From Paramacrobiotus metropolitanus (Eukaryota > Tardigrada > Eutardigrada > Parachela > Macrobiotidae), in the NCBI RefSeq assembly GCF_019649055.1, contig NW_026570280.1:620001-684000 (forward strand): a stretch of DNA of 64,000 bases, in the 5' to 3' direction. Shown piece after piece: positions 11,491 through 55,405 of this stretch. Below the pieces are notes generated by a model. It was given only the letters and a program-made list of their open reading frames with translations. It did not search any database and had not been told where the DNA came from. Made by a program: the position numbers and the translations under genes. Each line of letters starts with the position of its first letter. Within the stretch, counting starts at the first letter, position 1.

Positions 11491-14195
11491 TTGGAAAAGC
11501 GTCATACGCGTCCCAGCATCCGTTCGCGTCTGCGGTTTCTCCGCAAGGGCGCCAGCGCCAACAGGTCCAAAGCACCGCCAGCGCTGGGTACGTACAGTTC
11601 AATTTTTCCTCATTTCTTGTACATTAAAGTTTAATCTGATAATAGTTTATGAAATTAATAATAAGTGTTACAGATATTTAACATTTTTTGTCTTTTTATT
11701 TTTATTAATGGATTTTCTTCCTTTATTTCTATAAATAATTTATTAATAAATCACTTCAACTAATATTATTAATTATTACGCTGTCGTTATTATTTAATAT
11801 TATTTTATTTTTCATTTTATTAATTATTTTTTAAATTATTTTCTGTGTACGGTAATTACCGCAATGAAGAGTTATCCCGCACATTTAATTTTCTGGTTAT
11901 ATTAGTGATTAATAAACTATTATTATTAATTATTAAGCTATGATTATTATTTATTATTATTAATTTTTTATTTCGATTAATTAATTTTTTAAAATTATTT
12001 TCTGTGAACGGTAATTATCGCAATGAAGAGTTATCCCGCACATTTAATTTTCTGGTTATATTAGTGATTAATAAACTATTATTATTAATTATTACGCTCT
12101 CATTATTATTTAATATTATTTTATTTTTTATTTCTATTAATTATTTTTTTAATTATTTTCTGTGTACGGTAATTACCGCAATGAAGAGTTATCCCGCACA
12201 TTTAATTTTCTGGTTATATTAGTGATTAATAAACTATTATTATTAATTTTTACGCTCTCATTATTATTTAATATTATTTTATTTTTTATTTCTATTAATT
12301 ATTTTTTTAATTATTTTCTGTGTACGGTAATTACCGCAATGAAGAGTTATCCGGCATAATTGATTTTCTGGTTAAATTTTTGATCAATAAACGAAAAGAA
12401 AATGGAATAACTGTGCAGGTGAGCATCGCAAGCAACCCACCCTGGGCGGTGGAGCGGGCGGAGCGCGGGGCGGGTGCGGAGGCGGAACGGGCGGCGGGCA
12501 ACGTGGAGGAGTGGATGCCGGATATTTTCCCCTATCTCAGCGTCATCGACGCCGCCAACAAGGTATCGGCCACGCGCTCAACGACTATCGACCACGTTTC
12601 TGCGCTGGTAATTTTTCCCCATGCAAGTAGTTTCCGCCCGCCATATTTCAGACTGACGCAATTATGTTCCATTAAATTGTTGAATTAAATTAATTAAAAT
12701 AAAATAAATTAAATAAAATTAAATTTAAATAAAATAAAGTTAAAATAATTAAAATTAAGGAAGCAATATTGAGAACTATGAATTCGGTACAGAAATTACA
12801 GACGTCTAATAGAAATTCACATTAATTAAAATGAATAATATTAGTATTATTTTGTGTGTATATATTTTAAATTAATCAAAAAAATATAGTTTCATAAAAT
12901 TAAATTACAGACGGCTAATAGAAATTTACGGTAATTAAAATAAATAACATTACTATAACATTATATATTTTTTCAGTTATATTTCAAATTGCAGGCGGCC
13001 GATAAAAATTTAGATTAATTAAAATGAATACAATTACTATGAAATTATATATTTTTCACAAATAAACTTAAAAAATCATTGTATATTCTTGTAATAAATA
13101 TTCCTTCAAGTACGTATATTTGTTAAATTAATTAGAATAAAGGGAGCAGTGCGAAAAAGTGCCCACCGCCAAATATTTTGTTGTGGACATTGCAGAGCAA
13201 AAAGGTCACGGAGGTATGCGCGCTGCTGCCACAGTGGAGAGCGATGAGAATGCCGACGGTAATTAATTGTGCGAAATTCCGTAACTTTCGTATTCAGAAT
13301 TTGTGTGTCCCTAATTTGTAAGATTTCACAAAAAAGTTATTGTAATGATATTTACTTAACTTGGCAGATTCCGTCATGATCATCGAAAATGGCATCATGG
13401 AAATGGACATCGACGACGTTCAGCCGGCTCGTGCTAAAGGTCAACCGGCATTTTATCCCTTTTGCCATTTCTTATATATTATTTTATTTAGCGATTTTAT
13501 TTATTTTTTTCTTTGCGCTTATAGGTTACGTAATAAACTACTTTTACGATAAAATCATGCAGTACATCTGCCTAACTAATCCTTCAAATCCTATCCAGTT
13601 GGATACGAACAAATCCTCGTAAAATAAAATGGAAAATGATACATAGAAGAAAAATGCTGCAAAATAAAAGTATCCAAAAATAAATGATGAATAAATAATC
13701 TACAATTAAATTTTCAAACAGCGATAAGTTAATTTAATAAATTTTACCTGGCACTGGCGATTTGTAATTTAACGCGTTGGCTTATTTCCAGGGAAGCGAG
13801 ACCGTCGCGGGGAGCAGCCGGGTAATTTTAAATCATTTCCTAATATTTTCCTTTTCTGAGCAATTTTAAAAATCTTTTCTAATATTTTATTTTTTGGCAT
13901 TTTATTTTTTTTTTATTTTTCTGCAGACATGGCGGCCGCCCGGGATGCGGATATGGAGGAGGCCGGTCCGTCGGGCAGTGGCGCCGCGGGGAATGCCGGG
14001 CTGACAGCGGGAGGCGGCCGGGCCGGAAGTGGGCGTGCCGGAAGTGGGTGGGACGTCGGTATCCAGACGGAGAAATGGGAAGGGGAACGGGAAGGGGAAG
14101 GGGTGGGCGGGCACGACAAGGCCTGCCAGACGCGCCGCACCTGGGACGCGGAGAGCCAGACCTTCGCCATTCTGGTGGAGGAGGGCATGGAGTAG
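11491..14195 (+). CDS. Multi-exon unknown protein with three LC8-like QT motifs (5' end incomplete)
   Basis: Phase-consistent exons are 12419-12562, 13150-13258, 13368-13439, 13792-13821 and 13927-14195, with 11491-11587 as a likely but weaker upstream exon. The first exon was not found. Exons are GC-rich and introns extremely AT-rich. The product starts with an Ala/Glu-rich helix-like segment ending PDIFPYLSVIDAANK. An acidic stretch (MIIENGIMEMDIDDV) and a Gly-rich linker follow. The C-terminus carries three spaced motifs, DVGIQTEK, DKACQTRR and DAESQTFA. These resemble the x-[I/C/S]-Q-T core recognised by dynein light chain LC8. I recognise no catalytic domain. A 21-bp GT-AG candidate at 13214-13234 is more simply read through in frame. 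A partner role with LC8 is inference. Confidence 0.6.
11735..12375. repeat. 158-bp minisatellite, about four units
   Basis: The block TCTGTG(T/A)ACGGTAATTA begins at 11842, 12001, 12159 and 12317, giving a period of 158-159 bp. Each unit continues with GCAATGAAGAGTTATCC and an AT-rich tail. Because the period is not a multiple of three, the repeated open frames of about 65-70 codons seen here are by-products. The array fills the intron before the exon at 12419. Confidence 0.85.
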
Positions 14196-43281: not shown

Positions 43282-44478
43282 TTCCAGCACTTTTTATTGC
43301 TTGAAGATAATAGTGTTCAATGAAGGTACAGCTGTATAACGGTAGTCGGCACCTTCCGTAAATATTCAAAAAACCGAGGAGTTCCCGTGGATCACTCGTT
43401 AATTATCCCTTTACCCTATAAATTGTAGTTATTCGTTTTATGCATTGCAATTGTATCAGCTAAGCTGTATCAAGTATGAAAGGGTTCGCACGCCATCTTT
43501 AAGTGCATCGATCGTATCCCGCCGAAGACCAGATCCAGGTATCCATGATACCTGCTCACCATAAAGTATAAACCATTGCCGCTTGATTGTCGGCTATAGG
43601 AACCCATTTTTACACTAAGTACAACCTGTACAAGAAAGCGTCACAAGTGCGAACCGCTATAATCTACCCCACGGCAATCCACGCCAAACGTGTCCCCGTG
43701 GACATTTCCGCTGTGTTCGTCCCACCTCCCGCCAGGCTGCCACCCTCGACGAAATGGTAGCCCTTTTACCAGAATGGTGATACAAGGAACCTGCGCGGGG
43801 AAGCTGATTTTGCGGTCAAAATGTGACCTTTCAAACTGCCACCATCGTTATCAAACCAAAAAAAATCCTGAAATTTGGTCAGAGTGGACATATTACTGCC
43901 GGGACTTAACAATATGCACGGACATGATGTTGCCACGATGGTGAACGTTTGCTTCTCATTCGCAAACTCAACATCGTTGCCGAGAAGTGTTGATTCTGGA
44001 TGAACGCACACACGTGAACGATTTATCCGTGTTATTAATTGTGACACTCTGTGAATCAAACGGTACATGTAGTGAGCATCCGGTATTGTACAGCGCCGGG
44101 AAACAGTTCATTCGTCTGCGGATGTGTTGGTGCTCGAAGTGTGCACATTTACCGCATATGCAGTCATCGCAGTTATCTGGTTTTATCACTGGCAGCGATG
44201 GGCTTGGGGGAGGAGCCCCGTTGATAACGGCAAAATTACCGCTGCTGTGGCATGTAAGACCGCAAAAGATGTACGACATAAAGGGCGCACGGACCAGGGA
44301 GGGCGTTTGAGTGCCCGGAGCCAGGTTACTTTGCCATAAACTGACCGGAAATCCATGCCGGTCCTTGATTTCTTTATTATGACCATTATGATCCACAATT
44401 TCAGTGATGGTAACAGAGGGGATGGGAAGTAAGTTTTAAGGGGACATTTTTGCCGATCACACTTATGGGTTATGTGTA

Positions 44479-44726
44479 TGTGGGCTTCGCCACACAATGC
44501 GTACGTTCGTTGATGCGTACGTTCTTCGTTCTGTATCTGTAATTGTGTAATGTTCGTTCTTCGGCCAACGTGTTGTGCAACACGTTGGCCTTGCTTGTAT
44601 GTTGTGCGTTTAGAGAGCTATATAAAGGCCCACTTCTGCTTGCAGAGTGGGGTGGTGCAGTCGAGTAGGTTTCCCATTGTATGGTATAAGTGATATAGAG
44701 TAGGCCTTTATGGGCCAGCTCCCACA
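44479..44726 (+). repeat. 5' LTR of the RT-less element
   Basis: 248 bp with TG...CA ends inside a TGTGGG/CCCACA terminal inverted hexamer. It contains a TATA box (TATATAAAG at 44619) and a perfect 28-bp palindrome at 44563-44590 (GGCCAACGTGTTG, TG, then the reverse complement). Identity to the 3' LTR is 246/248 by eye. Confidence 0.9.
44619..44627 (+). promoter_or_regulatory. LTR TATA box
   Basis: TATATAAAG sits about 107 bp before the LTR end, and the same box is present in the 3' LTR near 54237. It would start the element RNA around 44650, leaving a short R-U5 region. Confidence 0.6.
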
Positions 44727-44727
44727 C

Positions 44728-44747
44728 TGGTAGCAGATCGTGGTTCC
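44728..44747 (+). promoter_or_regulatory. Primer-binding site of the outer element
   Basis: One base after the LTR the sequence reads TGGTAGCAGATCGTGG. The first ten bases match the complement of the 3' end of eukaryotic initiator tRNA-Met (ending CTGCTACCA); the rest diverges. A conventional tRNA 3'-end primer is therefore likely, but its identity is not certain. Confidence 0.6.
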
Positions 44748-45229
44748 GGTCTTATTTGATTTTATGAATTTTTTTTAAACTAACGGGAGCTGGCCCAAAT
44801 CAATTATCCCACTTTTATTATCATCATTCTGCCTTAATTTTCTTTCCAATTCCATTCGAATATTATCCTTCACGATGCCTAATGAGGACACCCGGATTAC
44901 TTATAAAAACATCGCCTGTTTTTTTTTCTTCCGCAACGGCCCATTCACCTGGTGACCTTTCTTGATTAGTAAACCGGCTCAGTACGTGAGTGCATTAAGT
45001 AGCTCTGCCCTAAACTCATTTATTATATTTTGTTACGATCAAGGTAAAGCAGTATAGACTGCTCAAAACAACGAAATTTATTTGCATCATCTAACTTTTG
45101 CCTAGTCAAAGCAGTAATAAACTATGTATGCCCGAAAATAAATATGTCTCAACTTTGCCTCTTCAAATGTAAGCAGTTTGTTAGAGTTTATGCCTTCTGA
45201 AATTACATTTTGTTTGCCCGTAATATATT

Positions 45230-45448
45230 TGTTAGAATTTATGAGTGTAACCGTTACTAATGTCTGTTACTCATGTTGGCACCCAGCCCCTTTGTCATAC
45301 ACCGGCCTTAAAGGCGAAGTTGTTACTCAGAAGTTTAGTCAATATGACTGTTTTACTGAGTATATAAGAAGCTACAATTACAATGTTAACAACACAGGGA
45401 ATTACTCTTCATTAAAGCAAACTACCAAAACCACGGTTAATTCTATCA
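45230..45448 (+). repeat. 5' LTR of the copia element
   Basis: Begins TGTTAGAATTTATGAG and ends TTCTATCA. It contains a TATATAAG box near 45360. The only difference from the 3' LTR is ACACAGGGAA versus ACACAGAGAA. Confidence 0.9.
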
Positions 45449-45459
45449 GATTATGAGAC
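45449..45459 (+). promoter_or_regulatory. Copia primer-binding site, elongator tRNA-Met anticodon arm
   Basis: Directly after the LTR, GATTATGAGAC is complementary to GTCTCATAATC, the anticodon stem-loop of eukaryotic elongator tRNA-Met (anticodon CAT). With the last LTR bases the match is 14 nt (TCAGATTATGAGAC). Drosophila copia is primed by an internally cut 5' half of a tRNA-Met (initiator), so half-tRNA priming from a different tRNA-Met is the inference here. Confidence 0.6.
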
Positions 45460-45515
45460 CTGCTTGTCTCTAAGCAGTGTTGAGTTTGTTTTATCATTGT
45501 TGTGTGGATACTACA

Positions 45516-48500
45516 ATGGCGCAGTTGAAGAGTATTAAGGTCACCGAGTTGAACGACTCCAATTACTCGCGATGGCGGGTACAGGTGGAGGACGTGTTGA
45601 CTGGTGAGTCTTTGTGGTCCGTTGTGAACGGGACACTGACGATGCCCCAGGATTCGGCAACGGATAAAGCTGTGCATGAGCACCACCTGAAGTGGATAGC
45701 TGCCGATGGAAAAGCCAGAAGTATATTGCGTGCGACTGTGGATGATACCACCTTCAGTCAGTGTCGGGACTGCAAGACGTCCGCTGAGATTCTGAAGAGG
45801 ATCCAGGAGCTGAAAGAGCCGAAGACTGACAACGACTTGATGTCGGCAATGACCGAATTTTTCGAAGTCAAGTGGAAGGAGGTAGACGACGCAAATACAT
45901 TCATGGCATCATTGTATGTTCTAGCGGCAAAAATAGACGCGTGCGGGAAGCCGGAAAAGGTTACCGACACCTGGTTGATCGGTAAGACGCTAGCCAGCTT
46001 GCCCAAACAGTACGCCTCATTTGTTTCGTCGTGGAACATGATGGCCGGTCCTAATCCTGAGATGTCCAAGTTCCGGGAGAAGCTGCTCCTAGCGGAAAAG
46101 ATGATGAAGGGACAGGGAGAAGGAAGCGGGTCCAGTCCAGCTGGTGAGTCGCTGTACGCAAAAGGTAAGCGGCTACCAACTGGAGCGAAGAAAAAGTTCA
46201 CCGGAAGCTGCCACAACTGCGGCAAAGCGGGCCACAAAGAAGCAGATTGTTGGTCAAAGCGGAAAGAGGATCCAGGCACCAACAAGCGACAGGACATGTC
46301 CGGTCACGGTTACAGGAAGGAATCCTTAATGGTTTCAGCTATGCATGTGGCCGGAAATACGGATGCGATCATTGCTGATAGTGGGGCAAGTGACCATATC
46401 ACGAATAAGTACACCTGGTTTAAAACTCTAGTTAAGCTAGATGTTCCCAAGCCGTTCGTGGTTGGCAACAACGCGAGTATCCAGGCCACCCATATTGGCA
46501 CGATCGACATCGAGATGTCCGTCGACGGAAAGCAGTGGCGGGAAGCGGAATGGAAAATGTGTACTATGCACCTGATGCATGCGACACTACGCTGCTGTCC
46601 ACGGTGACATTGGAGCGAAAGGGATTCGCATTTTCCCACGCTAAAGGAAAGATGACAATCAGCAAAGATGGCAAGGCGTTCCTCGGTGGAGTGCGAGGTG
46701 ACGGTGCAACGTACCGACCTTTCATACGTGTGGTGCCGCCAAGTGGAGATGCGCTGAAGGCGCAGCCTGTGGGAATTTGGCACCAGCGGCTTGGACACGT
46801 CAGCGACGCATTGGTCGACTCCATGGTCCGCAACAAGGTGGTGGACGGCCTGGAGGTGGTGACCTCGAAGCGCGGTGACTGTGAAGCGTGTCATATGGGA
46901 AAGCAAACGGCTAACACCCATGACAGCAGTGCTGGAAGGGAGTGCCTACCAGGTGAGCGGTTTCATAGTGATGTGTGTCATTTGGGCGCAGACTCCTGGG
47001 AGGGACATCGATATCTCTTGACGTTCAAAGATGAGAGCAGCGGATACAGAATGGTCCGAACACTACCAAGTAAGCACTCTGTGAGTAATGCATTCAAAGA
47101 GCTGATTATCACAGCAGAAAGGGAAACTGGTAGAAAAGTGTTGTCGATTCGCACGGACAACGGGACTGAATATATCAACCAGGAGGTTGAAACGCTGTTT
47201 CAGAACAGAGGGATAAAGCACGAAAGAAGTCCGGCGTACGTGAAGCAAGCAAACGGCATGGCAGAACGGGAAAACCGCACGCTCTGTGACAGTGCGCGAA
47301 CGCTGCTCTACGATGCGGACATCACAAAATGTGAGAAGAATCTCCTGTGGAGTGAAGCCATCTCAACCGCCGCCTACCTACGGAACATTGTGCCAAATCG
47401 GGGAAAGCTGGAAATTACTCCGGATGAACTGTGGCACCGCCGGAAGCCAACAGTTGACCACCTGTGTTTGGATCAACGGCCTACGTTAAAGTTCCGGAGG
47501 ATCAGAGACGGAAGCTGGATCCCAAGTCGGTAAAAACACTGTTTGCAGGTTACGATTGGGACACCACGAAAGTGCTCCGGGTGTTCAACCGGGAAACGAA
47601 AAAGGTGGAGCGGGTTGGAGATGTGGTTGTCGCAGATGGTGGCGACGAGATTCCCGAAGTTGCTCTACGGTATCCTGCCTCAAGGGGGGATGAGAACGAG
47701 CGGGATGATGATGAAGAGTGGGAAGATGCGGAAGATGAGCCGGGAAGCGAGATTGCTGTGGAAAAGGCAGCAGTTGAGAAGCGACGGCCAGGGCGACCAC
47801 CGGGATCGAAGAATCTGGTGAAGGATCCTCCTCTTCCGCATCCCATGGAAACCAGAGCCAAGGGAGCTGCGTTGTACGCAATGGCCACGGCCGCAGATCC
47901 AGTTGATGTCCAGGATGCGCTGTCGAGAGCGGACGGGCACCTGTGGAAGCAAGCAATGGATGCTGAAATTGAAGCGCTGCATAAAACGGGCACTTGGACT
48001 TTGGAACAGCTACCAGCAGACCGGCGCACTGTGAAGTGTAAGTGGGTTTTTAAATCGAAGCTACTTCCAGATGGCGAGCTGGATAAGCGGAAAGCGCGGC
48101 TTGTGGCATGCGGCTACTCACAAGCGCAAGGCATTGACTATGGCGAAACCTTTGCCCCCGTTGTACGACACGAATCGGTGCGATGTGTGTTAGCGGTGGC
48201 TGCCGCACGCAACCTGGAAATGGTACAGTTTGACGTCAAGACTGCATTTCTGAACGGTGACTTGGATAAAGTCATATATATGGACCAGCCGGCAACGTAC
48301 GACGACGGTAGTGGACGTGTATGCCGGTTGAAGCGTTCAATATATGGTTTGAAGCAAAGTCCAAGATTGTGGAACGAGCGAGTGAACGCAGTACTAACTG
48401 GACATGGATTTGTTGCATGCAGTGAAGATCCATGCGTCTATGTTAAGAAAGGTACGAGTAAGGAGTACATGGTACTGTGTCTGTATGTTGATGATGGGCT

Positions 48501-49461
48501 GGTATGTGGTGCGACGCGAAAAGTGGTGGATGATTTCCTGAAGAAACTGAAAGAAGATTTCGAACTGACGGTTCATGAGCCAGACTGTTATGTGGGCATG
48601 GAGATCGGTCGGAACAGGAAGATCGGCACCATCAGCATCAACCAGCAGGGATACATCAATCGCATGCTGCAGCGATTTGGACTACAGGAGAGTAAAACCT
48701 ATACGTCTCCTCTGGATCCGAATGTGAAGCTGATGAAATGTGAGGATGGAGAAGAGCCATATGGCTGTCCATACATGGAAGCGATTGGCTGCCTCATCTA
48801 CATCTCTTCCATATCACGCCCGGATATCACTTACGCAGTGAACCGTTTGGCGTCGTTTGGGAAGAAACCGGGATTCAACCACTGGACAGCTGTTAAACGG
48901 GTAATGCGCTATTTGAAAGGCACATTAACTTTGGCTTTGACGTTTGGTACAGCAAGTATGGAGTTGACCGGATACTGTGACTCGGATTGGGGAGGTGATC
49001 CGGATGAGCGGAAGTCAACCTCCGGATACGTGTTCACCCTGGGAGGCGGACCTGTTGCGTGGAGTTCCCAGCTGCAGAAAGTGACAGCGTTCTCCGCGAC
49101 GGAAGCCGAATATATGGCACTGGCCGAGGCAGTTAAGCAGAACGAGTGGAGCAGACCGTTTCTGGATGCGCTCGGAGTGGACATGACGAAGGCCACCCAG
49201 ATGTATGTGGATAATCAAGGCGCGATTGCCTTGTCGAAGGATCCCGAATTCCATAAGCGGACGAAACATGTCGGAATTCGCTACCATCGAATCCGCCAGG
49301 AAACGAAAGCCGGATCGATCGAGGTGAGCTATATTCCAACGGATCAAAATCCATCGGACATGCTGACGAAGGCGCTCGGAGGGATCAAGGTCAAATCCAT
49401 CACCGGACTGCTCGGGATGCATGGAGTGAATGACCGTGGACTGGGTGAAGGGGGGTGTTAG
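45516..49461 (+). pseudogene. Copia Gag-Pol polyprotein, two frame breaks
   Basis: The start at 45516 gives MAQLKSIKVTELNDSNYSRW, a Gag of the UBN2 type. Then come a CCHC knuckle (CHNCGKAGHKEADC), protease DSGASDHIT, integrase zinc domain and core (HQRLGH; FHSDVCH, IRTDNGTEY), reverse transcriptase (VQFDVKTAFLNGDL; CLYVDDGL) and RNase H (GYCDSDWGGD; ATEAEYMAL; KHVGIRYH). A base seems missing near 46553 (a run of A before NVYYAP) and near 47468 (before FGSTAYVKV). Otherwise about 1,315 codons are open. The stop codon TAG lies within the first bases of the 3' LTR. The breaks may be real or assembly errors, given the near-identical LTRs. Confidence 0.9.
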
Positions 49462-49674
49462 AATTTATGAGTGTAACCGTTACTAATGTCTGTTACTCAT
49501 GTTGGCACCCAGCCCCTTTGTCATACACCGGCCTTAAAGGCGAAGTTGTTACTCAGAAGTTTAGTCAATATGACTGTTTTACTGAGTATATAAGAAGCTA
49601 CAATTACAATGTTAACAACACAGAGAATTACTCTTCATTAAAGCAAACTACCAAAACCACGGTTAATTCTATCA
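49456..49674 (+). repeat. 3' LTR of the copia element
   Basis: 219 bp, one substitution from the 5' LTR. It is preceded by the purine tract at 49444-49455. Its TGTTAG start supplies the polyprotein's last codon and stop. Confidence 0.9.
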
Positions 49675-51160
49675 ATATTTCGACTTGTTCATTAATTTTA
49701 TGTGCCCTAAATAATCGCTTATTATAAGCTAAAATACAAAGATTTTGGCCAATTTTCTTCTTGCCGGCTTAAATGAATTTATCCATGGAATATGTTAAGC
49801 GCGCGAATTTATTGACGCAGTGAAGTGCTTCGTCCGAATTTGAGTGAAGAAATTTCTCAAAATAGTCGGGTTTAAAACTTGCCATTTACATGGCAATTTT
49901 ATCAATATTAACGGGAGCTTTGTGCTGTTGTCCCACTGTTAGCGAAACGCAAGGCGTGGGACCCTTGCACGTTAACAAACAACACAATTGCGACCACAAA
50001 AAAAAATTGAGATTCATGAAATCACGTGATAGTTTTGTTACAGAGATTAATTCCATTTGTAGTCAATAAAATTGCTGTTATTTTTGTCAAACAGAAGATG
50101 GGTTGATTTTGATTCCCCACACTTTGATTTGCTGATGCTTAATCTAATATCAGTTAAAAGGAATTTTTTTTATAACAGGGCGCAGGATGTACGCAATAAA
50201 CCGGGCTCTATTTCAAAGACGTGGTCAATACTGTTTCTGTAAAAATTTTAATTTTGCGCAATTCACATTACTAATTACAGTTTTAATGGGCATGACATTA
50301 TCAAAATGTAGGCGATATTTCACTCTTATGCAAATGAAACCAGAGCAAATTCGATGCGACTGAGGCCGTAAAATCTGTCATTACTGGCAAAATTTATGCG
50401 AGTTCGAATTTTCGTGAATTTTTACATAAGCAAGCTATACTTGCTTATGTATACTTGCTTATGGCATCCAACTCGAACAATGAGGTTCATCAAACGACAA
50501 CAGTTATAACGATCGTTGACTATACTATACTACAAGCATATAATTTTTTTAATTGTCTTGTAATGTTTTATTTGTTCAAGTGCTATGTATAGGTACGTCC
50601 GTTTGTATCATAATAATGTCCGTAGTACGTAGTACATATATTCATAATACAAAACCTCATACCAATCATTCTGCCAACTTTCTTATGAACGTAATTTGCT
50701 CTCAGAATAAACGAACGCTGCCAAATTGCGGCCATTTCACATAAGTACCTGACGGACATTACAGTCTCAAGCAATTTAGGTTACATAACAAAAAAAATGT
50801 GGAAGTAAAACTTTGTTATGTCATATGTCATATGTTTGTTCTTTCGACAAAACAGTTCTTAAATGTCATGGGCAGCGCGATCCATCATCGGTTATCTAAC
50901 TTTATTACACAGTTACCCAGAAGTTATGCAACAACTTGTTTGTTGGCACTTGTTCGGTCATTTCCAACTTGAATTATGTCAGTGAACACCAAACGAGTGT
51001 CAACGGACGCGGTAGTCCATATAAAACAACGTGGCTTTGAAACGACGAAAAGTTTCTTATTAGTGCAAGAATTGTTCAATGTCAACTTAGTTGACCTTTA
51101 CACAAAAGTCTCAGTACAAAAAAGCAGGTACTTACAGGTAAATTAGACCTTTTCAGAATC
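49675..51160. other. Non-coding leader part of the RT-less element
   Basis: Together with 44727-45229 this forms about 2 kb between the 5' LTR and the first gene. It has no long open frame and no recognisable gag remnant. A short direct repeat (ATACTTGCTTATG twice, near 50446-50472) is present. The sequence just before 51161 contains several CAG|GTA-like words, so the downstream gene might be expressed from a spliced leader; this is speculative. Confidence 0.4.
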
Positions 51161-51649
51161 ATGACACAATGCTTTAACTGCGGTCGGTGGGGTCATCGCT
51201 ATGCAGATTGTCCATTTGAACGTTGCTGCTTTAACTGTCACAGCGCAGGGCACATAGCTCAGGAATGTGACCTCGATCCGCAAGAATACGATAACGACGA
51301 TCGTGGCAATACAGAGAAGGGCGAGAATTGTTTAAATTGTGGTGGTTGGGGACACCATTTTGCGGTCTGTCCATCTCCCCACACCTGCTTTAGTTGTCAC
51401 AACGAAGGTCACAAAGCAAGCCAGTGTATTATCGATCCCAGTAAATATGATACGTATGAATACGATGATGAGGGAGACAATTACGATAGCCAAGACAAAG
51501 AGCCAATTTATGGATCCGATCACTATTATTTCTGCCCCAATTGCAAAAAGCCCAGCCTGGAAATTTCAAATGCATGCATTGAGGAAATTCGATGTAAGCG
51601 CTGTCAATTTTATGCGCATGACTTGAGCCTATGCGAATGTACACAGTAA
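51161..51649 (+). CDS. Four-zinc-knuckle protein of the RT-less element, 162 aa
   Basis: The protein begins at ATG 51161 and has four CX2CX4HX4C knuckles: C4-C17, C23-C36, C57-C70 and C76-C89. They are arranged as two pairs of the same design (CFNCGRWGH then CFNCHSAGH; CLNCGGWGH then CFSCHNEGH). Acidic linkers DPQEYDNDD and DPSKYDTYEYDD follow each pair, so the gene arose by internal duplication. The C-terminus has a further pair, CPNC and CKRC, likely a zinc ribbon. Such knuckles bind single-stranded nucleic acid, as in retroviral nucleocapsid, CNBP and GIS2. No capsid or polymerase segment is attached. Its position before the hairpin-repeat array makes that array a candidate target (inference). 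Confidence 0.85.
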   Translation: MTQCFNCGRWGHRYADCPFERCCFNCHSAGHIAQECDLDPQEYDNDDRGNTEKGENCLNCGGWGHHFAVCPSPHTCFSCHNEGHKASQCIIDPSKYDTYEYDDEGDNYDSQDKEPIYGSDHYYFCPNCKKPSLEISNACIEEIRCKRCQFYAHDLSLCECTQ

Positions 51650-51880
51650 TTGCACGCAATGGTAAGTCGGACTAGTGCATCTGGTAATACTGTTTTTGAA
51701 AAATGTATTAAAAATCAAATTCGTATTTTAATAATTCCGCAATATTTAATTGAAGCAGCACACTCGATAAAACTAAACAAAAACGCGCTGCATCATGATT
51801 TATTTCGATAAAAAGATCTACACGCTGGTTAAATTCATTATGACATTATTTTGTCCCGTGCCGTTTCTTACATTGCAGCC

Positions 51881-52637
51881 AAAAGATCGCATTAGCGACA
51901 TTAATTTTTTTAGTAAAAAGATCGCATTAGCGACATTTATTTTTTCTCTTTTAGCAAAAAGATCGCATTAGCGACATAATTCCTATTACATCAATTGAAA
52001 AGATCGCATGAAGCGACAAATAAAAATTTTCTTTACTTAAAAAGATCGCATGAAGCGAGATTTAATTGCTTTTCGTTCAACAAAAGATCGCATGAAGCGA
52101 CAAGCAAAAGTTTCTTTTAATGTACAAGATCGCACGAAGCGACATTAAATTCTTTTTCGTTCAGCAAAAGATCGCGTAAAGCTACAAGAAAATAATTTTT
52201 TTTACTTTATAAATATCACGCCAAGCGACAATAACATGTTTTTTTAGTCTGAACTAAAGATCGCTTAAAGCGACAGTTAAGGATTTTCCATTCAAGAAGT
52301 CGCAATTAGGAACACTTAAGTTTTAAGTTTCAAAAAGATCGCATAAAGCGACACGTAAAATTTGTTTTATTTTAAAAGATCGCAGGTAGCGGCAAGTAAT
52401 TTTGCATCATTCAAAAAAGATCGCTTAAAGCGACAATTAAGATTTTTGTATTCAAGAGATCGCAACTAGCGACACTTAATTTTACGATTCAAAAGATCGC
52501 AGGAAGCGACAATTAATTTCTCAGCATTCAAAAAGATCGCATAAAGCGACATCTAAGAGTTTCAACACCATTTAAAAAGGTCGCCTAAAGCGACAATCAC
52601 ATTTCCATTATCACCCAAAAAGATCGCATAAGCGACA
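51881..52637 (+). repeat. Array of 19 hairpin-capable 20-21-bp repeats
   Basis: Nineteen units of consensus AAAAGATCGCATAAAGCGAC plus A start at 51881, 51916, 51957, 51998, 52040, 52082, 52124, 52166, 52210, 52255, 52294, 52333, 52374, 52415, 52454, 52491, 52531, 52575 and 52618. Spacing is 35-45 bp, mostly 39-42. Each unit has the inverted halves TCGC and GCGA around a 4-5-nt variable centre. The AT-rich spacers (15-25 bp) diverge far more than the units, yet several are recognisably related and an 84-bp higher-order period shows at 51998-52186. It is therefore a tandem repeat with a conserved core, not a CRISPR array. It lies between the zinc-knuckle gene and the RING locus. Confidence 0.95.
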
Positions 52638-53129
52638 GAACTGTTCGATACCTTTAATTATTTACCGGCAAAGATTGCATACACAATCATTTTTCACTTT
52701 GACTGTGAGCGCTTCACAGCGCCTTTTTCTACGCTCTACTTTTGGTTCCGCTGTTCCGATTTTTCTTCTGTACAATTTCTTATTACTGTCAGCGCGTTAC
52801 ATTACGGCGGTCGATCACCGTTCAACTATACTCGACCGCATGTACAATTTCATCCAACGAGACCGTCGATTCAATTTTAACCTGCTTGTTAATATCGGTT
52901 TTAAAGCACTGCAATCAGACAACTACTGCACTGCAAGTTTAATCGACCCCATATATGCCATCCATACGAATAGCAGATCAGAGCCTGTCTAAAGCAAACC
53001 ACTGTCCGAGCTGATCATCTCCGAGCTTGCTCTTCTTCGTTTTTCAATTGCCCCGGGCATAATAACTTACTCGGCTTCTTGCCATATACACCGTCTTAAC
53101 ATCCGCACAAAACAGCAGTTTCAATAAAA

Positions 53130-53447
53130 ATGGACCATGATCGCCCACCTATAATCTACTGCAGTGCTGACTACGAGCTAATTATATTAGATATCAGCAT
53201 TGCAGATTATTATTTAAAAATAACATACGAAACGGAAGCCTTGTCTGTTGACTTTATCAACAATCGCTATTCCTGCCAAAATTGTCGCTACTCTGCTCCG
53301 TCCGCGATCGGCATCTTTACACATACATTCCGCAGATACATCTTACCTGCTATTCTAAGCCGGAATCTACTCCGACTCATTCGCCAACGATATACCGCAC
53401 GCGCCGTGCGCGAGCATAACCGGGAATACGATGCGGCTAACCCGTAA
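53130..53447 (+). CDS. Unknown 105-aa protein of the RT-less element
   Basis: The ATG-led frame encodes a hydrophobic/acidic N-terminal half and a basic C-terminal half. One CQNC pair with a downstream histidine (YSCQNCRYSA...FTHTFRRY) recalls a degenerate zinc finger. Its last 17 bases overlap the start of the next frame (ATG at 53431), a compact arrangement typical of viruses and mobile elements. No family is recognised. Confidence 0.5.
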   Translation: MDHDRPPIIYCSADYELIILDISIADYYLKITYETEALSVDFINNRYSCQNCRYSAPSAIGIFTHTFRRYILPAILSRNLLRLIRQRYTARAVREHNREYDAANP

Positions 53448-53903
53448 GAAGAAACGACATGGGCGACTCTGGCTAACGCCACCTATTATTTTAAAGCATC
53501 AACGTCTTCGCCGAAAGGAAAAATTTGAAAGAATTATGAGATGGATTCCTTACACACCAGTAATGGAGACCCACCAACGTTCTAACACCCGACAAAATCC
53601 AAGGCCAACATTCTACTTGTCTCCAGATATACCACATGCCGTACGTCCAAATACCAAACCCGTACCAACAAATAGCCAGACCGAATGTCCCGTCTGATAC
53701 TGCGTTTTAAACGACCAAAACACAGGAGGAAACGAATACAGCTCCATTGCGGCCACGCAGTATGTTCTCGCTGCTTCCATAAAATATTTTCCACCTACGC
53801 CAAGGAGCTACGCATAGACTGTGCCATAAGCCCTTTACAACAACGTCCCAGATGTCCTCTCTGCAGGAAGGAGATTCGTCCTGAGAGAAGCACTTACAAT
53901 TAA
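53431..53903 (+). pseudogene. RING-finger protein of the RT-less element, one frame break
   Basis: The first frame starts at 53431 (MRLTRKKKRHGRLW), is strongly basic and reaches TECPV before TGA. One base must be missing near 53696: in the next frame the sequence continues LRFKRPKHRRKRIQLHCGHAVCSRCF and ends with RCPLCRKEI. Together they make a C3HC4 RING: CPxC, LHCGH, CSRC, CPLC. RING proteins are usually E3 ubiquitin ligases. If the break is an assembly error the gene would encode about 157 aa. Host-derived capture by the element is possible. Confidence 0.65.
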
Positions 53904-54085
53904 TCTATACTAAATATTCTATACTATACTTCTTTAAAAAATGGAAAATCTTTGTTAGTGCATGTTGGTGATCTATTTCTGTACGTATCTTAAGTAGTCT
54001 ATTTCTCTTGTTTTATAGTTTTGCTTCTTTAGCGCCTGTTTACGCCACTTTTCTTAGACTATGATTACATGTTTTTTTTCCGTAG

Positions 54086-54096
54086 ACGGAGGGAAG
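54086..54096 (+). promoter_or_regulatory. Polypurine tract of the outer element
   Basis: ACGGAGGGAAG directly abuts the TGTGGG start of the 3' LTR, as expected of a plus-strand priming site. Confidence 0.7.
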
Positions 54097-54344
54097 TGTG
54101 GGCTTCGCCACACAATGCGTACGTTCGTTGATGCGTACGTTCTTCGTTCTGTATCTGTAATTGTGTAATGTTCGTTCTTCGGCCAACGTGTTGTGCAACA
54201 CGTTGGCCTTGCTTGTATGTTGTGCGTTTAGAGAGCTATATAAAGGCCCACTTCTGCTTGCAGAGTGGGGTGGTGCAGTCGAGTAGGTTTCCCATTGTAT
54301 GGTATAAGTCATATAGAGTAGGCCTTTATGGGCCAGGTCCCACA
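54097..54344 (+). repeat. 3' LTR of the RT-less element
   Basis: 248 bp, two substitutions from the 5' LTR (GTGAT/GTCAT and AGCTCCC/AGGTCCC). It ends CCCACA before the TGTA duplication and contains the same 28-bp palindrome (54181-54208) and TATA box. Confidence 0.9.
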
Positions 54345-55405
54345 TGTATTATGCAGATACATGGGATGAGGCTACGCGCGCGTTACTTCCAAAAAGACAG
54401 GATTTGATAAAAAATTCTAAAAAACTCCAGGATTTGATATAGGCCCTACATGTAGCAATATCTTCATAACGGGCAAATGCGGTGACGTAGCGCAACCTCC
54501 TAGCGTTTTTTCCGTGACGATTTACCATAACCGACAAAAATCAAAAGATGCAGTTTCACTGTACGTGTATAGGGTCACTCTGACGTCCTTGCGTTATTCC
54601 GTAACGATCTTCTATAACGGAAAGAATCAAGAGTTGCAGTACCGCTGTATACAGCCGCTACGTCACGCGCCACGGCTGCCAACCATGTAGTCATTGACAA
54701 TTACGTCATAGGTCATACCGGTCAGCTCACCATGTCATAGTATTACTTCTGTATCCCACTTCCGTAACGAACTTCCGTAACAAGCTTCCGTAACGGATTT
54801 TCGTAACGGACAGAAATCAACCTATGCATAAGTCTTGAATATAGTGGACTTTCGCTACGCTCCGATCGATCACCTCCGGTACCGGCGCCGGTAGAACGAT
54901 AAATCTTACGGTGAACTTGGAAAAAATTTCCAAATTTTGTTGCATAAAGCAAAAAATCAGTAATGTATTATGTTCTAACTGAAAACTATGACTGTAACTT
55001 GAATCAAAAAATAATCTTATTTGACCATAATCATTGTCCATACGGCTGACCTTCCACTATAATTCCGTTTGAGTCACTAGCGAAGGTAAGTGGAAAAATG
55101 AACTGTCATGTACAAAAAGTACTAATTAAGGGAACCCAGCTACTGTCGTCTACCACTACTGTCCACTTCACAGAGCCCGTTTGGTGAACGAGTGACCGAG
55201 CTACCACTACTAGCCAGTGCACAGGTGACAGATCTGTCTTTCTGAGCTGTTGCGATGTACTTATCATGTTTCGACGAACTGCTCACTGATATGCATACTG
55301 TGACAAAATACTACACTCTCAATTGTTGATAACATTTGCGGGAACGCAAAGAAGCAACAAAAAAATAGCGTTCACGCAAACACCAAGTACAGAGTATTGA
55401 TTGTT
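54345..55405. other. Gene-free stretch with TTCCGTAAC short repeats
   Basis: At 54759-54810 the words CTTCCGTAACGA, CTTCCGTAACAAG, CTTCCGTAACGG and TTTCGTAACGG follow one another. Similar CCGTAACG words occur upstream near 54590. No gene is seen. Confidence 0.5.

Follow-up and report, generated by a model that had tools for sequence, protein, structure and literature searches.

Dispersed, recently moved LTR elements of the tardigrade Paramacrobiotus metropolitanus that lack replication genes still keep protein genes under purifying selection. We consider it probable, at roughly 0.65, that these elements make up a satellite clan among LTR retrotransposons, with Ty3/gypsy-type enzymes copying them in trans and with accessory proteins that they encode themselves. 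The reference copy lies in a 64,000-nt stretch of contig NW_026570280.1 (positions 620,001–684,000, forward strand; the window, to which all coordinates below refer). Genome loci of LTR elements are designated by C-numbers, and the window copy is C60.

Architecture of the window element

C60 occupies positions 44479–54344 and spans 9866 bp, or 5421 bp of its own sequence when a nested Ty1/copia element is subtracted. This foreign element (45230–49674, + strand; LTR 219 bp; target-site duplication [TSD] ATATT) has an LTR pair with 1 substitution and the Pfam domains copia gag, rve, and RVT_2. C60 itself is flanked by the TSD TGTA (44475–44478 and 54345–54348) and bounded by a 5′ LTR of 248 bp (TGTGGGC...CTCCCACA; 44479–44726, +) and a 3′ LTR (54097–54344, +), which differ by 2 substitutions in 248. 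The 5′ LTR contains a TATAAA motif (44621–44626, +) and, upstream of it, a 28-nt near-palindrome (44563–44590; 26/28) whose core is found again in other clan LTRs, with a match of 97–100% over 28–29 nt. The primer binding site (PBS) TGGTAGCAGATCGTGGTT (44728–44745, +) is complementary to the 3′ end of tRNA-Met plus CCA, and the polypurine tract (PPT) GGAGGGAAG (54088–54096, +) recurs identically ahead of the 3′ LTR in C41, C110, C5, and C480. A preliminary description had concluded from the LTRs, the TGTA duplication, the primer site, and the purine tract that the element moved as an LTR retrotransposon; all four features were located, and C60 belongs to the order of LTR retrotransposons.

The interior encodes a zinc-knuckle (ZK) protein of 162 aa that has four CCHC motifs and, at its C terminus, a CxxC...CxxC stretch (51161–51649, +), followed by an array of 19 units of the form (R)TCGC-loop-GCGAC, in a single orientation and mostly at 37–47 bp spacing (51886–52636, +). 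Next comes ORF B, of 105 aa, with a zinc-finger-like CxxC...H pattern (53130–53447, +). ORF C is split: a first piece of 88 aa (53431–53697, +), overlapping ORF B by 17 nt, runs from a basic region to just inside a RING domain, and the remaining RING lies in a different frame (72 aa; 53685–53903, +). Thus, of the three small genes described earlier, two of them overlapping, the ZK gene, ORF B, and the ORF B/ORF C overlap stand, but the RING gene is broken in C60. An Rfam scan of positions 44300–54500 matched no family.

Absence of gag-pol and recent movement of the family

When five frames of a Ty3/gypsy element and three of the copia element were used as tblastn queries (E ≤ 0.01), no gag-pol match was obtained in the own sequence of C60, and the positive controls were recovered. 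Likewise, none of the scanned sense-strand ORFs of at least 65 aa had a Pfam gag or pol domain, so that the reported absence of gag-pol from about 5.4 kb of own sequence was borne out. Membership of Ty3/gypsy is judged by RT phylogeny and PR-RT-RH-IN order, and neither RT nor IN was detected in the own sequence of C60; it is not filed under that superfamily, with which only its 4-bp TSD is compatible. The preliminary description had also named gag-pol in the other copies as evidence that would overturn it. C41 (5462 bp), C110 (6199 bp), and C5 (4694 bp), each with both LTRs and matching 4-bp TSDs, were read end to end, and gag-pol was not detected; no gag domain or gag similarity was found in these three or in C60.

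Matching 4-bp TSDs were present in seven of eight elements (C60, C41, C110, C5, C9, C25, and C99, but not C58). The LTR pairs of C41 and C110 are identical (0/247 substitutions in each), indicating that the window family has moved recently, and identical pairs also occur in C99, C25, and C9 (273 of 274 bases seen in C9). C25, C58, and C75 are small elements whose gag-like proteins end in one knuckle.

Selection on the encoded proteins

The ZK frame is open in all five full-length genome matches, and dN/dS was 0.16–0.35 in all six pairs among the four copies compared, the C17 copy being left out (Fisher P = 5e−8 for C60–C41). The ZK gene is therefore under purifying selection, as the preliminary description had proposed to check, and the genes of C60 are more than random insertions. 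The four C-x2-C-x4-H-x4-C motifs of the C60 protein were recognized by sequence; its Pfam zf-CCHC score (19.5 bits) is below the cut-off of 20.8, as are the other CCHC matches except those of a short C5 protein (23.2 bits) and C58. ORF B is also under purifying selection, with dN/dS of 0.22–0.39 in six pairs among C60, C41, C5, and C480 (Fisher P = 3e−5 for C60–C41); 7 of the 12 genome matches were used, and pairs with C185, C99, and C69 were saturated or had zero dS. ORF B is truncated in C110. Single-sequence structure models of both proteins were unusable (pLDDT 33 for ZK and 42 for ORF B).

ORF C forms a single frame in C41 (172 aa), C5 (173 aa), and C110 (191 aa), and is interrupted in C185, C480, and C293 as well as in C60. 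As a C3HC4 RING protein, and hence a putative E3 ubiquitin ligase, it is weakly matched: the best RING scores (C5, 27.3 bits; C41, 25.9 bits) are below the Pfam cut-off of 27.9, and in a comparison of three copies the C41–C5 pair gave a dN/dS of 0.51 that was not significant (P = 0.12). The proposed check on the RING frame thus gave a divided answer, open in three copies but broken in C60, and ORF C is poorly supported as a selected gene.

The selection signal argues for function at the level of the element, as genes would persist intact only if they aided their own copy. An unlikely alternative is that the elements arose by deletion from an autonomous Ty3/gypsy parent that carried gag-pol and extra 3′ genes, the signal having arisen before the loss. 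In its favor, ORFs B and C lie on the 3′ side, where complete elements place env-like or additional ORFs, such as the ORF3s of bdelloids in the part of PMC5408684 drawn on here, and the C9 relative, at 9.06 kb, is roughly as long as a complete one. However, ZK, ORF B, ORF C, and a second C9 ORF never occurred in a pol-bearing element among the fully read loci (C60, C41, C110, C5, C9, and C99), although the remaining matches could hide one. Furthermore, the interiors of C41 and C110 diverge by about 15% although each has identical LTRs, and their ZK differences fall mostly at third codon positions; selection has therefore acted on lineages that now lack gag-pol.

Purifying selection would also be expected if the genes had been captured by the host and now served it, with the LTRs merely as vehicles. 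This domestication, one of two readings originally suggested, is very improbable: the genes are scattered over several copies, a number of which are broken, and the LTR pairs are fresh. No full-length homologue was found among other proteins with ZK, ORF B, or C41 ORF C as the query (3, 327, and 46 candidates, respectively, the ORF B search using an alignment; no match at the thresholds used), and relatives of ORF B and ZK were both absent from the viral contigs searched. These negative results are weak evidence of novelty, since the coverage of eukaryotes in the searched sets is uncertain. The other reading, a parasitic one, fits.

The repeat array

The order of the array, noted earlier, was confirmed: the parser found 19 units, compared with a mean of 0.85 and a maximum of 5 in 100 shuffles, and genome-wide the array motif occurred at 64 sites versus 3 for the reversed pattern. 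Its interpretation as RNA hairpins fared less well. Folding of the array RNA was close to that of shuffled sequences (z = −1.17; 2 of 20 shuffles equally good), 8 of 15 perfect units formed all four pairs at p > 0.5, and covariation was scarce: pairing was preserved by two-sided changes in 5 cases, whereas one-sided changes numbered 62, including 23 to G-U. It is therefore quite possible, if somewhat doubtful, that the array works at the DNA level rather than as an RNA target, as an insulator or enhancer like the Su(Hw) sites of gypsy, whose tandem repeats function as an insulator according to the portion of PMC3286476 used here. The unit spacing near 42 bp, or four helical turns, across much of the array is consistent with this alternative. 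In contrast, the motif AAAGATCGC occurred 77 times in sense and never in antisense across seven array stretches, which fits a role at the RNA level, but simple tandem growth too.

Primer site and candidate helper

Three tRNA-Met genes were found by their 3′-end pattern, and two primer-site variants pair with two tRNA-Met gene variants; an insect initiator-tRNA stretch gave no match as a query. The primer-site pattern matched the genome 421 times (control, 3), but the loci read were mostly other repeats, and the count was rejected as evidence of a widely shared PBS. A long frame at each of L049, L055, and L061 contains the motif in antisense orientation. In the window family, the primer site is enclosed by a 13-bp stem between the end of U5 (44711–44723, +) and the leader (44785–44797, +), and the stem recurs elsewhere with other bases. 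The test for an uninterrupted stem was convincing solely in C60, C41, C110, C165, and C25 (0–1 of 200 shuffles as long); the corresponding counts were 21 for C5, where the sequence stretch was truncated, 75 for C9, 78 for C58, 50 for C75, and 73 for C150. C99 and C21 had no such stem.

Relatives of ORF B occur in two further LTR families without gag-pol: the 9.06-kb C9 family, which has an array and two ORF-B-like genes, and the 3.09-kb C99 family, of which five copies were found. ORF B thus recurs across LTR families with differing primer sites. C21, a Ty3/gypsy element in which domains for protease, RT, RNase H, and integrase were identified, is the likely helper of the 3.09-kb family; it resembles C99 in its LTR ends and primer site as well as in the leader motif and the purine tract. 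For the window family, junction searches for a helper with the tRNA-Met primer site returned just the family itself and other small LTR elements, except for C150, in which the 1.2 kb read contained a gag-like fragment. The preliminary description had proposed a check for an autonomous relative sharing LTR ends and primer site; C21 is a candidate of this kind for the sister family.

The 4-bp duplications and the signals that the C99 family has in common with a Ty3/gypsy element are the reasons for proposing copying in trans by Ty3/gypsy proteins. The window family retains all the cis signals (TATA-box LTR, tRNA-Met primer site in a U5-leader stem, and purine tract), and its RNA would be packaged, reverse transcribed, and integrated by such proteins. 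The ZK protein, a putative nucleic-acid binder, may favor its own RNA, perhaps via the array, and so promote uptake into helper particles; ORF B and the RING protein may be accessory factors acting on helper proteins or on host restriction. More tentatively, with a nearly even chance, the clan could be a true satellite lineage that lost or never had gag/pol, in which a conserved trans-acting set (ZK, ORF B, and RING) would direct the Ty3/gypsy helper or counter the host's control, much as satellite viruses act on their helpers, ORF B being a hallmark across satellites of different helpers.

Comparison with known systems

Searches of the open-access literature turned up no LTR element with this combination of features. 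As a rule, non-autonomous LTR elements are regarded as passive RNA templates. Should the proteins described here aid the element that encodes them, retrotransposons would have given rise to satellites equipped with offensive genes, and helper capture would become testable. Large retrotransposon derivatives (LARDs) are similarly LTR-flanked, several kilobases long, and non-autonomous, with conserved cis signals, but their internal region is non-coding by definition, whereas ZK and ORF B are open and under purifying selection. The TR-GAG elements of plants are non-autonomous LTR elements that retain a structural gene, the GAG domain being their sole gene; the window family has knuckles and ORFs B and C but no gag-like domain, and TR-GAG is nearer to the small elements C25, C58, and C75.

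The non-autonomous cqUNK elements of Culex (PMC3286476, in the part considered) resemble the window family: their LTRs are closely alike, PBS, PPT, and TSD are readily recognized, the interior contains tandem repeats, gag-pol is absent, and no master copy is known. Some of them (cqUNK_17 and cqUNK_37) combine a Met PBS with a length of about 5.4 kb. The window family shares the LTR signals and tandem repeats, and searches returned no master copy; however, cqUNK elements are described there as having no coding sequence and mostly 5-bp TSDs, whereas the window family has 4-bp TSDs and two selected genes. Bdelloid LTR elements with extra ORF3s resemble the clan in that extra genes are common to different LTR families, but, as far as the cited part of PMC5408684 goes, they are described with both gag and pol, which the clan lacks, and their extra genes are of other types than those of the clan.

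Structure and coding content of the element

The window occupies positions 620001–684000 of contig C60 in an assembly of 169.8 Mb in 533 contigs. Its outer LTR element (44479–54344) shows the features that the preliminary description had read from it: LTRs differing at 2/248 positions, TGTA duplicated on both flanks, a primer site (44728–44745), and a purine tract (54088–54096). It contains a nested Ty1/copia element (45230–49674; LTR of 219 bp, 1 substitution; duplication ATATT), in which copia gag, integrase, and RVT_2 were found with Pfam. Removing this insertion leaves 5421 bp of own sequence, and the claim that this roughly 5.4 kb lacks gag-pol was upheld. Tblastn with eight query frames (five from a Ty3/gypsy element of the same genome and three from the copia element; E ≤0.01) gave no gag-pol match, the positive controls were recovered, and Pfam detected no gag or pol domain in any of the 13 sense-strand ORFs of ≥65 aa, three entered as ATG forms. 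An AT-rich tandem array elsewhere in the window (11758–12392; four 158-bp units, 92% matches) is unrelated to the element.

A search of the assembly with the 248-bp LTR, as had been proposed, recovered the window pair and copies on contigs C41 and C110, with weaker matches on C293, C165, C480, C5, and C185. Three copies were read end to end: C41 (5462 bp; duplication CTCC; LTR substitutions 0/247), C110 (6199 bp; TAAG; 0/247), and C5 (4694 bp; ACAT; 3/227). The longest aligned internal blocks of the window element and C41, C110, and C165 share 85–86% identity. Because LTR pairs are identical while the insides are divergent, at least two sublineages of the window family have moved recently. The alternative that other copies carry gag-pol was contradicted by C41, C110, and C5, which were negative both by the same tblastn search and by Pfam, the latter covering 14/17 ORFs of C41 (not those of the zinc knuckle and ORF B), 10/13 of C110, and 10/13 of C5; ORF C of C41 and of C110 and the short zinc-knuckle frame of C5 were scanned in addition, each in its ATG version. 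The few weak, unrelated Pfam matches in the scanned ORFs, some in frames crossing the repeat array, were taken as chance.

Conservation of the three genes

Three small genes, two of them overlapping, had been described, and all three were recovered, but in the window copy the frame of the RING gene is broken. In the zinc-knuckle protein, four CCHC motifs are accompanied by a CxxC...CxxC stretch at the C-terminus. The 14 genomic matches of this protein comprise five full-length ones (C60, the window contig, and C110, C165, C41, and C17; 86–100%), one short relative (C5), and eight weak matches that are single knuckles of other frames. The frame is open in 5/5 full-length matches, and dN/dS was 0.16–0.35 (Nei-Gojobori; six pairs of C60, C41, C110, and C165; Fisher P 5e−8 for C60–C41), which is the purifying selection that the preliminary description had proposed to look for. 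ORF B, a CxxC...H zinc-finger-like gene with 12 matches, gave 0.22–0.39 (six pairs of C60, C41, C5, and C480, same method); its C110 copy is truncated. ORF C, the RING gene, overlaps ORF B and has 13 matches, and its RING matches score under Pfam cut-offs. It is one frame in C41 (172 aa), C5 (173 aa), and C110 (191 aa), but is disrupted in C185, C480, C293, and the window element, and its selection signal is weak in the close pair C41–C5 (dN/dS 0.51, P 0.12); in the distant pair C41–C110 it is clear in raw counts only (P 2e−17, dS saturated).

The repeat array

In the window copy, the array separates the zinc-knuckle gene from ORF B and has 19 RTCGC-loop-GCGAC units, whereas shuffled sequences average 0.85; C41, C110, C165, and C5 have 20, 22, 18, and 18, and the C9 element described below has 33. 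Genome-wide, 64 sites (≤2 mismatches) were found versus 3 control sites; by our own count, 47 lie in C60, C41, C110, C165, C5, and C55, 8 in the C9-type family, 3 in C272, and 2 at C165:167.6–167.9 kb, and 4 are isolated. Units beyond the elements read occur at C272:78084–78189 (43 bp apart) and C165:167631–167940. The flanked motif AAAGATCGC occurred 77 times in sense and 0 in antisense across seven array stretches. The array is real, but its description as hairpins fared less well: RNA folding gave z −1.17 relative to shuffles, and two-sided pair changes that preserve pairing numbered 5, versus 62 one-sided changes (23 G-U) and 3 two-sided changes that break pairing. Well-paired units in the RNA fold numbered 8/15 of the perfect ones. 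The RNA reading of the array is weak.

Other LTR families bearing ORF B

The C9 element (9.06 kb; LTR 274 bp, identical over 273 bases compared; duplication CTGG) shares the primer site and the array with the window family and has two ORF-B-like frames in tandem (96 and 216 aa), which matched the ORF B alignment in profile comparison at E 1.4e−6 and 2.5e−5. The second frame has 19 matches, including C245, C280, C362, C110 (415.5–416.2 kb), and C9 (176 kb), with the C99 family picked up at E 0.002–0.004. This 9-kb family has a long degenerate array, and the copy read gave no gag-pol match by tblastn and no gag or pol domain by Pfam (10/11 ORFs ≥70 aa). Its loci are the element itself (L076, L078), C110:415.5–418.7 kb, C9:172.6–176.7 kb, C245, C280, and C362. 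The C99 element (3.09 kb; identical 284-bp LTRs; duplication GTGG) has four further copies (C84, C106, C69, and C155) and carries only one sizeable gene, related to ORF B (31%); two read stretches gave no gag-pol match by tblastn.

Cis signals and candidate helpers

Three genes called tRNA-Met(cat) share the 3′ end ...AACCACG[C/A]TCTGCTA, and the complements of these ends plus CCA give both primer-site variants observed, T in the window and G in C41 and C110. We take this tRNA to be the initiator, from the features A1:U72 and AUCGAAA loop. A 13-bp stem of the U5 end and leader encloses the primer site in C60, C41, C110, and C165; C5 has, by eye, a variant of it in a longer sequence, and in C25 the stem has 14 bp and is made of other bases. 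C9, C58, C75, and C150 show a similar fold, but it failed a simple shuffle test.

C21, a Ty3/gypsy element in which protease, RT, RNase H, and integrase domains were identified, has in common with C99 the LTR ends TGTTACGAGTA...GCACGTAACA, primer site ACTTGGTGGCTCCAGG, and leader motif ACACGAGYGCCCATGA, and their purine tracts are similar; by these cis signals, the C99 family and C21 are a predicted non-autonomous/autonomous pair. For the window family, the proposed check for an autonomous relative with the same LTR ends and primer site came out negative: genome searches for its LTR-primer junction found no such partner, and matched the family itself, C150 (1.2 kb read), and small gag-like LTR elements. 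The latter, at C25 (L068/L069; 1766 bp), C19 (L067), C58 (L077; 1634 bp), and C75 (L080), are very small, have similar LTR ends and the tRNA-Met primer site, and encode one gag-like protein, which terminates in a single knuckle. This protein has 27 matches, with six full-length frames (92–100%), and distant similarity (28–36%) to longer frames, including gags of ~494 aa.

The octamer TGACCTTT recurs in leaders of several LTR families, including C21 (window 44952–44959; L068, L076, L075, L070, L080, and L081), at small counts of 0–5 per element; reversed, it resembles a nuclear-receptor half site. In L049, L055, and L061, which represent a different kind of multi-copy repeat, a primer-site-like motif, GGTAGCAGATCGTGGTT, lies antisense within a long frame (931 aa in L061) that includes a protease-like DTGA motif.

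Interpretation and comparison with known systems

The 4-bp duplications matched in 7/8 elements (C58 mismatched at the boundaries used). Together with the cis signals and missing enzymes, they fit trans-mobilization, in which the window family would be moved by Ty3/gypsy-type proteins. That two genes are under selection in dispersed, recently moved copies is consistent with their serving the element; the roles of the proteins are inferred. In its bold form, this reading would make the family a satellite. The nearest published description that we found is of 38 non-autonomous LTR families in Culex (PMC3286476), which have tandem repeats but lack both coding sequence and a master copy; the window family resembles them, with genes added.
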